Assembly (NCBI RefSeq): GCF_000829465.1
Contig: NZ_JXAL01000001.1
Location: 558,001-622,000, forward strand
Reading direction: 5' to 3'
Origin: Cohnella kolymensis
GTDB taxonomy: Bacteria; Bacillota; Bacilli; Paenibacillales; Paenibacillaceae
DNA: 64,000 nt
Position 1 is the stretch's first letter; every line of letters begins with the position of its first letter. The notes under the pieces are model-generated. The model searched no databases. It saw nothing but the letters and a program-made list of their open reading frames with translations, and was not told the origin of the DNA. Of the stretch, positions 48,993-52,831 are shown piece after piece. The translations under genes and the position numbers were made by a program.

Positions 48993-49021
48993 AACATTTT
49001 CGCCTAGGGAGACATATGCTA
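48993..49021 (+). promoter_or_regulatory. Candidate sigma-K promoter of the CotS operon
   Basis: AACA (48993-48996), 16 bases, then CATATGCTA (49013-49021). The sigma-K consensus as I remember it is mACm-N16-CATAnnnTA, which this matches at every fixed base. It lies 42 bases upstream of the first CotS-like start. Sigma-K directs late mother-cell genes, including spore-coat genes. Confidence 0.6.
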
Positions 49022-49062
49022 ATTTAATTCATTCTCTATTCACATTGACGGGAGCATATGAG

Positions 49063-50055
49063 ATGAGTGAGCCGGAGTGCAGGAGTCAAAAAGTCGCATT
49101 AAAAAAACATCAGGTTAAAGACATGATTTTTAAGCACTACGGTCTAACCGTTCATTCAATCAAAAAGATACGTGGAATATTGAAGATCCTAATGGACAAA
49201 GGCATTTATTCTTTCAAAAACGCAGAAGAGCTTCCTGATCTTGACTTTGTTGTTCGCTGCTTACGGGTGATCCGGCAGAATGGATTTCCTTTCATTCCTC
49301 AACTGGTTCCGACGGTGACTGGAGAAACAAAAGTCAGTTTTGAAGGGGAAAGTTATTATCTGGATCAATGGATCGAAGGAGACGAACTTCCCGCCGGGAA
49401 AAATAATGAAGACTTGTTAGGCAAAGCGCTGGCAAGCTTTCACCGCGCCTCGCAACGAATCATCATAGGGTCGAACAGTACAAGAAACGGCTATGGAAAA
49501 CGACACGCATTTCTGCTTGATGGCAATATTAAGCTGCACAATTGGCTGCAAAAAGGGACACTCGTTACCGATTTCGATAAGCAAGCGCTCCGTTTTTTAA
49601 CTTATCGCTGTTGGTTGGCTTACTCTTATATTAAAGACGTTCCTGCTCATCCCCAAACCGTCATACCGGCTTTATGCCACGGCAGTCCCCACCACGAGAA
49701 TATACTTGTTGATTCCCGGAATAATATCTGGTTTATCGATTTTGAATCGCTCGTTTACGCGGAGCGCATGCTGGATGTAGCTCAACTCATTCATTACTAC
49801 GGTTACCCGTTTGAATGGGACTCAGCCGTCGTTCATCGGCTGTTGAACAGCTACCAAAGGCATCACGGAACCCCCATTTCAAAGGCGGAAGTCCGTTACT
49901 TTCTCTCCTATCTGGCATTTCCAAGAAGACTCTACAATGCCATGAACAAGCATTTTGACAATGAGGCGTCTTCCGATAAGCACGATAAAAAGTTAAAGAA
50001 ACTGATCGAACAGGAATACGCAAAAGAGCGGTTTCTCAGCACGTATCCTTTGTAG
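49063..50055 (+). CDS. CotS-like spore-coat kinase-fold protein, copy 1 (probable pseudokinase)
   Basis: 330 residues of the CotS/YtaA family (aminoglycoside-phosphotransferase fold). Visible parts are the N-lobe with YSFKNAEELPDL, the hinge YYLDQWIEG, the catalytic loop LCHGSPHHENILVD and the metal-site WFIDFESLVYAE. The catalytic loop reads HGS instead of the HGD of active kinases, so the catalytic base is absent although the DFE metal site remains. ATG 49063 follows GGGAG. It is the first gene of a five-gene operon with a paralogue at the other end, both probably coat or mother-cell proteins. Confidence 0.85.
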   Translation: MSEPECRSQKVALKKHQVKDMIFKHYGLTVHSIKKIRGILKILMDKGIYSFKNAEELPDLDFVVRCLRVIRQNGFPFIPQLVPTVTGETKVSFEGESYYLDQWIEGDELPAGKNNEDLLGKALASFHRASQRIIIGSNSTRNGYGKRHAFLLDGNIKLHNWLQKGTLVTDFDKQALRFLTYRCWLAYSYIKDVPAHPQTVIPALCHGSPHHENILVDSRNNIWFIDFESLVYAERMLDVAQLIHYYGYPFEWDSAVVHRLLNSYQRHHGTPISKAEVRYFLSYLAFPRRLYNAMNKHFDNEASSDKHDKKLKKLIEQEYAKERFLSTYPL

Positions 50056-50080
50056 GGTTCTATGGAAAGGAGTTTTTCTT

Positions 50081-50587
50081 ATGAGTCACGGGCTGATCAT
50101 TTGGTTAACCGGTCATTCCAAATCAGGGAAAACAACATTAAGCAAGCTTCTTTACGATGACTTAAATCAACGGCAGTACAAAGTAATACGATTGGACAGC
50201 GACACTTTGCCTAATGGCATCATTAAGCCTGAGGCGCAAACTTGGGAGGAAAAACAGAAGCTGAAAAACGAGAATCTAACTTTCCTTTCCAAGCTGCTTT
50301 TTGACAACGGATATTACGTGCTCATTTCTTCCGTAGGAAGGTATAACAGCTGGAGGGAGTTACTGAGACGGGAGGTTTCACGCTATTTGGAAATCTATTT
50401 GGAATGCCCGTTAGAAGAACGGATGCAAAGAGACACCGCCGGCAAATATGAGAGCCACAAAACCTATTTTCATTTTTATGAGGAGCCCAAAAATCCGGAT
50501 CTCAAGCTGCAAACGAACCGGGTGACGACCCAGAAAGCCTTACAGCTTATCCTTGATCTGCTCAAGGAGCGGGCATTTATTTCATAA
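50081..50587 (+). CDS. Adenylylsulfate-kinase-like P-loop protein, copy 1
   Basis: 168 residues. P-loop GHSKSGKTT at residues 11-19 and LDSDTLP after strand 2, in the place of the LDGD motif of APS kinase. ISSVGRY replaces the FVSPYR strand, and CPLEERMQRDTAGKYES replaces the usual VPLEVCEARDPKGLY. The fold is APS-kinase-like, but the substrate residues have changed, so sulfate assimilation is unlikely; the phosphoryl acceptor is unknown. AAAGGAG precedes ATG 50081. Gene order places it between the two CotS-like genes. Confidence 0.85.
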   Translation: MSHGLIIWLTGHSKSGKTTLSKLLYDDLNQRQYKVIRLDSDTLPNGIIKPEAQTWEEKQKLKNENLTFLSKLLFDNGYYVLISSVGRYNSWRELLRREVSRYLEIYLECPLEERMQRDTAGKYESHKTYFHFYEEPKNPDLKLQTNRVTTQKALQLILDLLKERAFIS

Positions 50588-50694
50588 AAGGAGGATGCAT
50601 TGCCCCATGTTTGCACAGGTACGGGTAACCCGTCCACTTCCCTCTCCTTCCGCCTGAGTATACTGAATCAGATGCTGGAAGGAGCTGCAAGCAA

Positions 50695-51234
50695 ATGACC
50701 CAAGGGATGGTTTTGTGGTTTACCGGACTTCCTAACTCGGGCAAGACGACGATTAGCAGATTGGTGTCCAAGCAACTCGAATCTATGGGATATCCGGTTG
50801 AACGTTTAGACAGCGATGAGCTTCCGCGTTCCATGACTAAAGATCTGAGCCCGGATTGGACGACCAGGCAAAAACAAAAGTGCACCAATCTTATTTATAT
50901 AGCAAAATTGCTGTACAAGTATAACGTGAATGTGCTGATTGCTTCGGTGGGCAGATTTGACGAAATGAGAAAACAGGCTCGCACTCACATTCCTTCGTTT
51001 GTTGAAATTTATCTAAAATGCCCTCTTAATGTTCGTCTGCAGAGAGACGATAAAATGAAATACGAAAGATACCCCGACACCATTCATTATTACGAGGAAT
51101 CCTGCAATCCGGAGATTACAATCGAATCTGACAAGTTGTCATCTGAAGAGGCTGTATCCATGATCATCCGTTACTTAATCGAACAAGGCTATATCACTGA
51201 ACCGGACGGCCGTGCTCCACATAACATGGAATAA
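50695..51234 (+). CDS. Adenylylsulfate-kinase-like P-loop protein, copy 2
   Basis: 179 residues. P-loop GLPNSGKTT at residues 11-19, LDSDELP, IASVGRF and CPLNVRLQRDDKMKYE. It is a diverged paralogue of the upstream gene and shares the same departures from canonical APS kinase. GGAAGGAG precedes ATG 50695. The 107-base gap before it holds no gene; it could carry an internal promoter, but I see no clear match. Two tandem divergent kinases suggest a heterodimer or two related substrates. Confidence 0.85.
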   Translation: MTQGMVLWFTGLPNSGKTTISRLVSKQLESMGYPVERLDSDELPRSMTKDLSPDWTTRQKQKCTNLIYIAKLLYKYNVNVLIASVGRFDEMRKQARTHIPSFVEIYLKCPLNVRLQRDDKMKYERYPDTIHYYEESCNPEITIESDKLSSEEAVSMIIRYLIEQGYITEPDGRAPHNME

Positions 51235-51264
51235 ACCACGGCCTAGAAATGGGGTGTCCGGATC

Positions 51265-51735
51265 ATGATTATTGTCCCTGTCATTCCGAATCGACTGTAT
51301 GCAGGCGGAAAATTGGATCAACAAGGATGGCGATTTATTGCACTAAATGTTAACACCGTTGTCAATCTCCGCACCGTACAAGATCATCCTCCTTTTGATT
51401 TCACAGGACGTTTACTTTTATGGACCCCGATTTTGGATCCGGTGCCTCCTTCTTTACAATGGGTCATTTCTGTAACGCGACTTATGAACGGGCTGCTGGA
51501 TACCGGAAATGTAATTTACGTTCATGATACGGCGGGGATTAATCGGCTGGGGTTTATTCTGACTGCCCTTTTTATGCAAAGATTCGGATACGGTCGAGAT
51601 ACGGCGCTGACACTTCTCCGCCAAATGAAGCCGGATTTGAACCCGAATCCCCCATACATGGCTTTGCTCGCTTCTTTTGAGGCATATCTGAACACGAGTC
51701 AGCTCGCGCAGGGTCACCGCTATGGTACGTGCTGA
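51265..51735 (+). CDS. Dual-specificity-phosphatase-fold protein with Cys-to-Asp change
   Basis: 156 residues. The fold is that of small protein-tyrosine/dual-specificity phosphatases: PNRLYAGGKL at the start, VVNLRTVQD, then the signature strand and loop VHDTAGINRLG (H87-D88-T89-A90-G91-I92-N93-R94). In an active enzyme this reads HCxAGxxR; here the catalytic Cys is Asp while the Arg is kept. It is thus probably a catalytically inactive phosphate-binding protein. ATG 51265 follows GGGG. It overlaps the second CotS-like gene by 14 bases. Confidence 0.78.
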   Translation: MIIVPVIPNRLYAGGKLDQQGWRFIALNVNTVVNLRTVQDHPPFDFTGRLLLWTPILDPVPPSLQWVISVTRLMNGLLDTGNVIYVHDTAGINRLGFILTALFMQRFGYGRDTALTLLRQMKPDLNPNPPYMALLASFEAYLNTSQLAQGHRYGTC

Positions 51736-52714
51736 AGTAACCGAAGGGCCGGAAGTCGTCCGATCCCTCATAATGAGGCACTATGGGCTGCCGGTGCAAT
51801 CGCTGGAGAAAGTCCGTGCCATATATAAAATCAGAACACCCTACGGTTCCTTTGGGTTTAAAAACGCGGAGGAACTTCCCGATCTCCCCTTAGTGGCGGA
51901 TTTCTTGGAACATGTGAGGCATAACGGCTTTGAACGAACACCGGCGTTTGTACTTACTACAGAAGGGACCTATCTCATCTATCATGAAAATAAGGCTTTC
52001 TTTATGGAGAGATGGGTCGATTACCCCGAAGTTCCCAAAGAAAGCTATCCTTATTTACAAAATATCGGCCGGGCGCTGGCTGATTTCCATCATGCCGCCA
52101 AGGGAGTGATCCCTCCTAAGGAAAGTCACCGATATGAATGGGGAAAACGGAAGGACATGTTATCCGCGGCTCTCGCCAAAATCCGGCAATGGAAGCAGCG
52201 GCCTTTGAATACCCCGATGGAAAAAATGATATTGGATTTTCTGAATTACCGCTGTTATTTGGCATTGATGCATTTGCAGAAGGTCTCGCCGCAGCGGCTG
52301 ATCCATACTTCACCTGACGCTGCTGTTCTCTGCCACGGCGGATTGCATCATAAAAATATATTGACCGACAGCCGGAACAGAATTTGGTTCATCGACTTTG
52401 AAACGATGGTGTACGCGGAACGGGTAATGGACATGGCGCAATTGCTGCAATATCACGCAAGCCCCTATCGATGGAATCCGGCTGTTGTGAACACATTCCT
52501 TACTGCGTACCTCTCCCGAATCACCGCACCGATCGTCCCCGAAGAGTGGAGTATATTTTTTTCCTATCTCGCTTTTCCTAGAAGATTCTACAACCGGATG
52601 ATCCGTTATTTCGACAACACCGAGCACCCGCAGGAGTTTCTAATGAAATTAAAGGAAACGATGGACCAGGATTTAGACAAAGAAAATTACCTGAGTAAAT
52701 TTCACGTTGTCTGA
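51722..52714 (+). CDS. CotS-like spore-coat kinase-fold protein, copy 2 (probable pseudokinase)
   Basis: 330 residues, clearly paralogous to the protein encoded at 49063-50055: FGFKNAEELPDLPL, FMERWVDY, LCHGGLHHKNILTDSRN and WFIDFETMVYAERVMDMAQLL. The catalytic loop reads HGG instead of HGD, again missing the catalytic Asp. The start lies within the phosphatase-like gene (14-base overlap), so translation is coupled. It is the last gene of the operon. It could act in the spore coat like CotS, or as a binding scaffold for the APS-kinase-like partners. Confidence 0.85.
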   Translation: MVRAEVTEGPEVVRSLIMRHYGLPVQSLEKVRAIYKIRTPYGSFGFKNAEELPDLPLVADFLEHVRHNGFERTPAFVLTTEGTYLIYHENKAFFMERWVDYPEVPKESYPYLQNIGRALADFHHAAKGVIPPKESHRYEWGKRKDMLSAALAKIRQWKQRPLNTPMEKMILDFLNYRCYLALMHLQKVSPQRLIHTSPDAAVLCHGGLHHKNILTDSRNRIWFIDFETMVYAERVMDMAQLLQYHASPYRWNPAVVNTFLTAYLSRITAPIVPEEWSIFFSYLAFPRRFYNRMIRYFDNTEHPQEFLMKLKETMDQDLDKENYLSKFHVV

Positions 52715-52775
52715 TAAGCGTACAAAGATAAACTCACATTTAATTGGTCCGCGTTATGGGACACGAAATAAATAT

Positions 52776-52815
52776 AAAACGGAGTGCAAACTGCTGCCAG
52801 TTTGCACTCCGTTTT
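52776..52815. terminator. Strong bidirectional terminator
   Basis: An 18-bp perfect stem (52776-52793 with 52798-52815) with a CTGC loop, A-rich on the left and T-rich on the right. It separates the plus-strand CotS operon from the minus-strand actP gene. Confidence 0.95.
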
Positions 52816-52831
52816 GTCATTCTCATTGTAA

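Follow-up and report, generated by a model that had tools for sequence, protein, structure and literature searches.

The bacterial spore kinases (BSKs) CotS, CotI/YtaA, YutH and YsxE were named as a family in 2009 (PMC2860764). As far as the accessible part of that study tells, they are coat proteins, some of them pseudokinases with further inactivating changes, and cotS and ytaA are controlled by sigma-K and GerE; none of the proteins had been assayed by then, and several had lost their activity for reasons that were unknown. Among the dual-specificity phosphatases (DSPs), the human pseudophosphatases STYX, DUSP24 and DUSP27 have Gly or Ser in place of the catalytic Cys, according to the accessible part of PMC13147768. 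Here, we describe a bacterial gene set in which relatives of both groups are linked to two proteins with the fold of adenosine 5'-phosphosulfate (APS) kinases. It lies in a stretch of 64,000 nucleotides from Cohnella kolymensis (RefSeq assembly GCF_000829465.1, contig NZ_JXAL01000001.1, forward-strand positions 558,001 to 622,000), referred to as the window in the following. The five open reading frames (ORFs) of the locus, K1, A1, A2, P and K2, are confirmed on the plus strand and span positions 49063–52714. At the level of sequence, we show to which families these proteins belong, which catalytic residues they have lost, that their genes are linked, in the case of P and K even fused in two other genomes, and that they are under purifying selection. 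Our preferred, if tentative, explanation is that the conserved set encodes an assembly of two kinases and two pseudoenzymes, probably in the spore envelope, in which A1 and A2 phosphorylate an acceptor other than APS and P and K form an ATP-binding, non-catalytic targeting unit.

K1 (49063–50055, plus strand; ATG start, with a TTG at 49045 as alternative start) and K2 (51722–52714, plus strand) are 42% identical and match the Pfam domain APH (3.8e-15 and 7.9e-13). Their best NCBIfam model is CotS (TIGR02906), with 121.5 and 133.4 bits. These scores are under the curated cut-off of 172.7, as are those of six other K proteins (120.2–166.0) and of one further (117.4), and we therefore rejected membership in the CotS model itself. 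In a broader sense the K proteins do fall into the BSK family, as their top NCBIfam models are CotS, followed by YsxE or CotI. The top sequence match of K1 in the PDB is the YtaA/CotI structure 2q83 (8.9e-06), and in the alignment, CHQD of YtaA stands opposite CHGS of K1. With the YtaA residue numbers given in the accessible part of PMC2860764, mapped onto the K proteins by motif, the catalytic Asp (D239) is replaced by Ser, Gly or Ala in all 13 K proteins compared, none of which thus has this hallmark of an active kinase of the APH/CAK group, yet the β3 Lys and the equivalents of H148, H237, N244, D257, D259 (as Glu) and D269 are invariant in all 13. By their residues, K1 (Asp to Ser, LCHGS) and K2 (Asp to Gly, LCHGG) are accordingly predicted to be CotS-like pseudokinases, as had been proposed from the sequence of the window. 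Two other CotS-like genes of the same genome, found at 1e-5, retain HGD. One CotS-like gene of this genome with an intact HGD (L067:1417-3608) overlaps a glycosyltransferase gene and thereby resembles the cotS-cotSA arrangement.

The P protein (51265–51735, plus strand) matches the Pfam family DSPc (PF00782) with 4.8e-10 and 39.8 bits, over the cut-off of 33.5, and the other five set-linked P proteins do so with 34.6–48.4 bits. In these six, the catalytic Cys is replaced by Asp (five proteins, including the present one with VHDTAGINR) or Glu (one), so that the active DSP signature HCxxGxxR is absent from all of them; the Arg is retained, and so is, in 6/6, the Asp of the DxxxP stretch ahead of the signature. 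All four unlinked P relatives retain both Cys and Arg. The structural model of P has a predicted local distance difference test (pLDDT) score of 76.7, and its 50 listed Foldseek matches are structures of DSPs or protein tyrosine phosphatases. Judged by its residues, P is a putative pseudophosphatase, in line with the first reading of the locus. An acid at this position is also found elsewhere, as some receptor-phosphatase D2 domains carry Asp at the position of the catalytic Cys. In one lone P homolog (L010:8406-8858), the HCxxGxxR signature is intact; an exact sigma-K-type site lies 33 nt ahead of this ORF, and the sigma-K gene of the genome scores over cut-off.

A1 (50081–50587; GHSKSGKT, DSDTLP, SVGR) and A2 (50695–51234; GLPNSGKT, DSDELP, SVGR), both on the plus strand, are divergent P-loop kinases of the APS kinase fold. 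They are 39% identical and match Pfam APS_kinase with 4.7e-23 and 4.7e-25, but with the NCBIfam model apsK (TIGR00455) they reach only 98.2 and 99.2 bits, under the cut-off of 138.7. We compared the 11 A1 and A2 proteins of all sets with 37 ordinary relatives; these remain when identical rows are removed from 42 loci, which had been retrieved as the best matches of A2 or, in this genome, of apsK. The Walker A P-loop is intact in 11/11 set proteins. DSDxxP and S[VI]GR are each present in all 11 and in none of the 37 ordinary relatives, whereas DGDxxR and KG[LM]Y (37/37 each) and LG[FY] (36/37) mark the ordinary relatives and are missing from all 11. Two further patterns were considered: [FL]TG, which occurs in five of the 11 set rows and was taken as the P-loop strand, and [STA]P[YH], which in its strict form is found in 1/37 ordinary rows, with P followed by Y or H visible by eye at this place in all 37. 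Since the alignment has a gap there and KG[LM]Y is absent, A1 and A2 appear to have lost the lid segment, which measures about eight residues in ordinary relatives. In a tree from which one A1 with an interrupted frame was omitted, A1 and A2 form a clade of 10 rows that is separated at 100/100 from the 37 ordinary relatives and that splits into an A1 branch (100/98) and an A2 branch (97/86). For A2, an AlphaFold2 model (pLDDT 72.6) was compared by Foldseek; the 50 matches listed are all APS kinases or proteins carrying such a domain, among them 1i2d and 1m8p, titled ATP sulfurylase, and 2yvu, titled APE1195 (probable adenylyl-sulfate kinase). The lost motifs, the separate clade and the scores below the apsK cut-off together support the proposed identity of A1 and A2 as two divergent APS kinases. 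A role as the APS kinases of sulfate assimilation was rejected because of the lost motifs and because a canonical apsK, over cut-off, is encoded elsewhere in the same genome.

A2, by which we define the sets, was found in seven genomes. This number is a lower bound, because the genomes searched (295, 290, 37, 392, 398 and 398) were samples drawn from larger groups, the searches in order, class and phylum used strict cut-offs, and the contig scan with the A2 profile relied on two peptide patterns. That scan yielded Cohnella pontilimi (G073), Paenibacillus sediminis (G015) and Tepidibacillus decaturensis (G527), each of which is counted once here, and the remaining sets are those of G796, G677 and G669. 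K belongs to the same gene run in six of the seven (not in P. sediminis), P stands beside A2 in six (not in T. decaturensis), and A1 is adjacent in four, in one of them with an interrupted frame; the A1 of G677 is encoded elsewhere in its genome (L106). The order is A1-A2-P-K in G796 and A1-A2-K in T. decaturensis, and in G677 and G669, A2 is followed by a single ORF of 494 or 496 aa in which Pfam finds DSPc and then APH. This fusion of P and K, which the original prediction did not include, is as a feature of sequence the strongest evidence that the two may act together. The prediction that the genes recur in related genomes has held, since the core A1-A2-P-K is found again; a five-gene unit with two K genes is not, as none of the other six genomes has a second K beside its set and K1 adjoins the set only here. 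The set occurs beyond the family of the window too, and its recurrence in other genera means that chance does not explain it. Compared with C. pontilimi by the NG86 method, A1, A2, P and K2 have dN values of 0.20–0.26, with dS values of 1.7 for A1, 1.9 for P and 3.1 for K2, and an undefined dS for A2.

Within the Paenibacillaceae, the neighborhood search that had been suggested finds the set again, but it is rare. Among 295 genomes of the family, P had matches in seven: set-linked P proteins in three (this genome, C. pontilimi and P. sediminis), one lone P with Cys (G002, 41%) and three weak matches, which leaves a clear P relative in 4/295; in the genus, 2/37 genomes matched. A2 profile searches gave 14 further matches among 392 genomes of the order at 1e-32, all ordinary by motif, and among 398 genomes of the phylum at 1e-42 this genome only. 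The K profile at 1e-60 found 11 of 398 genomes of the class, including the present one. In six genomes (G487, G788, G517, G693, G685 and G533), K was alone in the stretch fetched; the best A-profile matches elsewhere in these genomes were ordinary APS kinases in G788, G517, G693 and G533, and there was no A-profile match at 1e-8 in G487 and G685. In three genomes of one genus (L087, L088 and L089), a lone K with LCHGS lies just upstream of a dacF-like gene and the spoIIA-sigF genes: in L088, the next genes are the dacF-like one, whose best model, DacD, stays below its cut-off, and spoIIAA and spoIIAB, which both exceed theirs; sigF does so in L087, and L089 looks alike by eye.

Promoters recognized by sigma-K follow the consensus AC-N16-18-CATAnnnTA. 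Upstream of K1, a sigma-K-type sequence is found at 48994–49021 on the plus strand, with AC at 48994–48995, a 17-nt spacer and CATATGCTA at 49013–49021; the start of its -10 element lies 50 nt upstream of the K1 ATG. No other exact match with this spacer exists in the window, whichever strand is read, and spacers of 16–18 nt add three more, all on the minus strand. When the 150-nt upstream region was resampled with a Markov model, 0.7% of the trials contained such a site (16–18-nt spacer). When the 14 leading genes, i.e. the starts of sets, lone K and lone P genes, were compared with the other ORFs of the same stretches, an exact site within 150 nt upstream was present in four of 14 (K1 of this locus, A1 of G796, the lone K of G487 and the lone P of G002) versus 5 of about 245 (P 0.0006), and 0/3000 resamplings reached three. 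The background ORFs, of at least 100 aa, were listed mechanically for the window and for 13 fetched loci. For this reason, and because the 14 leading starts do not fully coincide with entries of this list, these P values are approximate. Two of the five background ORFs with a site are germination genes (GerPC and GerA), which suggests that the pattern is meaningful. Of the 14 genomes with a set, lone K or lone P, 10 exceed the cut-off of the sigma-K protein model and the other four have partial or split matches, while 0/14 controls exceed it; that all 14 examined genomes have a sigma-K gene nonetheless says little, because 11/14 controls have matches below the cut-off and Bacillus subtilis is under it as well.

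In the assembly that we propose, A1 and A2 would be descendants of APS kinases that exchanged the APS pocket for another one. Their retained ATP loop and altered acceptor motifs make it likely that they are phosphotransferases with a new acceptor, and most likely ATP would be the phosphate donor and the acceptor a hydroxyl group on another small molecule, such as a spore-envelope nucleotide, sugar or glycan building block. APS kinases are dimers, and A1 and A2 may perhaps form a heterodimer. P and K, in turn, are likely a single unit beside A2, as suggested by their fusion, by their overlapping or touching genes and by their joint linkage to A2; this unit would be covalent in two genomes. Within it, K would bind ATP and Mg but lack the catalytic base, and P would keep the phosphate-loop fold with an acid in place of its nucleophile. 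Since base and nucleophile are lost but the K site is otherwise preserved, a role in binding or targeting is most likely, and P and K might hold and position A2, its product, or both on the spore surface, like the coat-resident relatives of K. A physical complex of A2, P and K, located in the coat and expressed in the mother cell from the sigma-K-type site, would be consistent with this picture.

Several observations weigh against it. The sigma-K site announced in the original prediction does exist upstream of this locus, but it does not follow that sigma-K generally controls the sets, because only two of the seven sets have an exact site, the present one and that of G796 (Fisher 0.02), and the other five have no exact match within 150 nt; the group of 14 leading genes, moreover, was chosen post hoc, with lone K and lone P genes among its members. 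The composition of the sets varies, with P missing in T. decaturensis, A1 adjacent in only four and interrupted in T. decaturensis, and no K detected in P. sediminis with the K profile at 1e-10 (in a genome that is 88% complete), so that only A2, which defines the sets, is present in all seven. The unlinked A1 of G677 (L106), a twelfth protein of this kind, has DSDxxP but CVGR instead of S[VI]GR. The models of A2 and P are monomeric and of middling confidence (pLDDT 72.6 and 76.7), the oxidoreductase and symporter genes that flank the set in the window are uninformative about spores, and the glycan cluster described below is seen beside one of the seven sets only.

This cluster belongs to G796, where the set sits on the margin of an approximately 37-kb stretch (L112 and L113) that looks like a spore-glycan sulfation pathway: it contains a CotS member over cut-off (275 vs 172.7), a canonical APS kinase over cut-off, a sulfatase, DUF3880 glycosyltransferases (two tested), which we take to be CgeB-like, and three genes with a sulfotransferase domain, of which two exceed the Pfam cut-off and one falls below it, and an ATP sulfurylase gene, also over cut-off, is 1.2 kb from the set. 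In this lineage, the context points to glycan sulfation instead of the modification of a coat component by the two kinases that had been supposed at first. Nucleotide-sugar genes were seen by eye in the same stretch. Downstream of K and on the same strand, G796 has a 163-aa ORF (L113:14879-15370, identical to L082:6880-7371) without Pfam match and with an exact sigma-K-type site of its own, which is possibly a further member of the set there. A trio of a DUF3880-type glycosyltransferase, a canonical APS kinase and a protein of the type I phosphodiesterase/sulfatase fold was noted in 4/53 APS-kinase loci (L100, L101, L102 and L109). In T. decaturensis, gerPA/F, gerPC and gerPE lie about 2.2 kb from the set (L080:12251-13946).

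The APS-kinase ancestry of A1 and A2 and the neighborhood in G796, with its ATP sulfurylase, canonical APS kinase and sulfotransferase-domain genes, would also fit a set that serves sulfonucleotide metabolism for the sulfation of spore glycans, with A1 and A2 using APS, 3'-phosphoadenosine 5'-phosphosulfate or nucleotides like 3'-phosphoadenosine 5'-phosphate and P-K as regulators. We regard this as improbable, given that DGDxxR and KG[LM]Y are lost in 11/11 proteins, that both this genome and G796 have a separate canonical APS kinase and that no sulfation genes were noticed when the other six sets were inspected by eye, three of them over about 10 kb (the window, L008 and L009) and three over 17 kb (L080, L083 and L084). 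It is also conceivable, if doubtful, that the set has no part in the spore and acts in vegetative cells, as a regulatory or nucleotide module with a borrowed CotS-like fold, which would agree with the exact site in 2/7 sets only and with the lack of spore genes recognizable by eye beside the sets of the window, C. pontilimi, P. sediminis, G677 and G669. To the contrary, K is nearest to CotS, gerP genes are close to the set of T. decaturensis, and the sigma-K model exceeds its cut-off in 10/14 carriers but in no control, weak evidence in view of the sub-cut-off matches in 11 of the latter. Origins in defence or phages were rejected as well: against PADLOC models, the five proteins have only weak P-loop matches (the best 1.5e-4, for A2), and A1, A2 and P match phage families only as generic ATPases or kinases.

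Other readings concern the pseudoenzymes. A set that has lost catalysis and is on its way out would have the patchy distribution that we see, the interrupted A1 of T. decaturensis and the parts missing in several carriers; with the same residue lost in every K and in every set-linked P, the rest of the K site invariant, dN far below dS where dS can be estimated and the P-K fusion kept in two genomes, such conservation makes decay very improbable. The main bold alternative to a binding or targeting role is non-kinase transfer by K, as in selenoprotein O, which lacks the catalytic Asp and AMPylates, as stated in the accessible part of PMC12409994. K would then not be inert but use its retained ATP/Mg site for another transfer such as AMPylation, with the fused P as docking or reversal partner. 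Although the catalytic Asp is gone, all 13 K proteins share an unchanged ATP/metal site (Lys, Asn, Asp and Glu), unlike the BSK pseudokinases with their further inactivating changes; Gly, Ala or Ser at the catalytic position would suit a plain nucleotide-binding scaffold equally well, and we think it hardly probable that K works in this way. A more far-reaching version, a long shot in our judgement, treats P-K as a nucleotide-driven enzyme or switch, in which the Asp-less K carries out a non-kinase ATP transfer, the carboxylate in the DSP pocket is a new catalytic or phosphate-mimicking group and A1 and A2 make a special phosphorylated substrate. If this were true, it would amount to a modification of the spore surface not yet known in bacteria.

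As for the locus itself, the five genes had been described as lying in one direction with short gaps or overlaps, which applies to K1-A1 (25 nt), A2-P (30 nt) and P/K2 (a 14-nt overlap) but not to the 107-nt gap between A1 and A2. Part of this gap (window 50588-50694; L008:9446-9531) is similar in two Cohnella species, with the stretch TCTCCTTCC..CC..GAGTATACT, possibly an internal promoter or a regulatory site for A2. The set is flanked by a divergent molybdopterin oxidoreductase gene, presumably of the formate-dehydrogenase type, and by a convergent sodium:solute symporter gene. Between K2 and the latter, the strong terminator that had been described as closing the operon was confirmed at 52774–52817 as a terminator-like sequence in both orientations, with a 20-pair stem and a loop of 4 on the plus strand and 18 pairs on the minus strand; the scan gave seven terminator-like sites versus 4.3 expected, and the stems of the others are short.

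The component families are known. What appears new by sequence, as far as the literature searched goes, are their combination, the P-K fusion and a DSP with an acid for its Cys: a search that covered few subscription papers found nothing on any of the three and, as had been supposed at the outset, no described system with this set; nothing on the set was found in a search of the literature on spore sulfotransferases and CgeB; and the accessible part of PMC12599244 has nothing on the three either and contains neither 'spore' nor 'CotS'. The linkage, together with the fusion in two genomes, connects a BSK-type kinase with a pseudophosphatase and with two kinases whose ATP loop is intact, and it thereby offers this kinase concrete partners and a likely chemistry, namely phosphotransfer to a non-APS acceptor. 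A fixed pair of a pseudokinase and a pseudophosphatase would be unusual.

Among described systems, the CotB/CotH/CotG module (PMC7821199, in its accessible part) is similar in that it serves phosphotransfer in the outer coat of the spore with sigma-K timing, but its CotH is an active protein kinase; none of its members turned up when A1, A2 and P were matched to families, with no dedicated comparison made. With APS kinases (CysC; TIGR00455 and PRK00889), A1 and A2 share the fold and the Walker A motif, and they differ in having DSDxxP for DGDxxR and S[VI]GR, in lacking LG[FY], KG[LM]Y and the lid segment, in scoring below the curated cut-offs and in forming a separate clade. Like STYX, DUSP24 and DUSP27, P combines a DSP fold with a replaced Cys and a retained Arg, and the STYX structure 2r0b is among its sequence matches; unlike them, it is bacterial, has Asp or Glu where they have Gly or Ser (PMC13147768, accessible part) and stands beside, or is fused to, a pseudokinase. 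Finally, the BSKs resemble the K proteins in fold, in that CotS is the best model, in the tendency toward pseudokinases and in the sigma-K-type promoter sequence found at this locus. The K proteins, by contrast, remain under the cut-offs of CotS, CotI, YutH and YsxE, have lost the catalytic Asp yet retain the seven other positions checked, and are linked to genes of the APS-kinase and DSP folds, and in two genomes fused to a DSP domain, where BSK genes are linked to glycosyltransferases.

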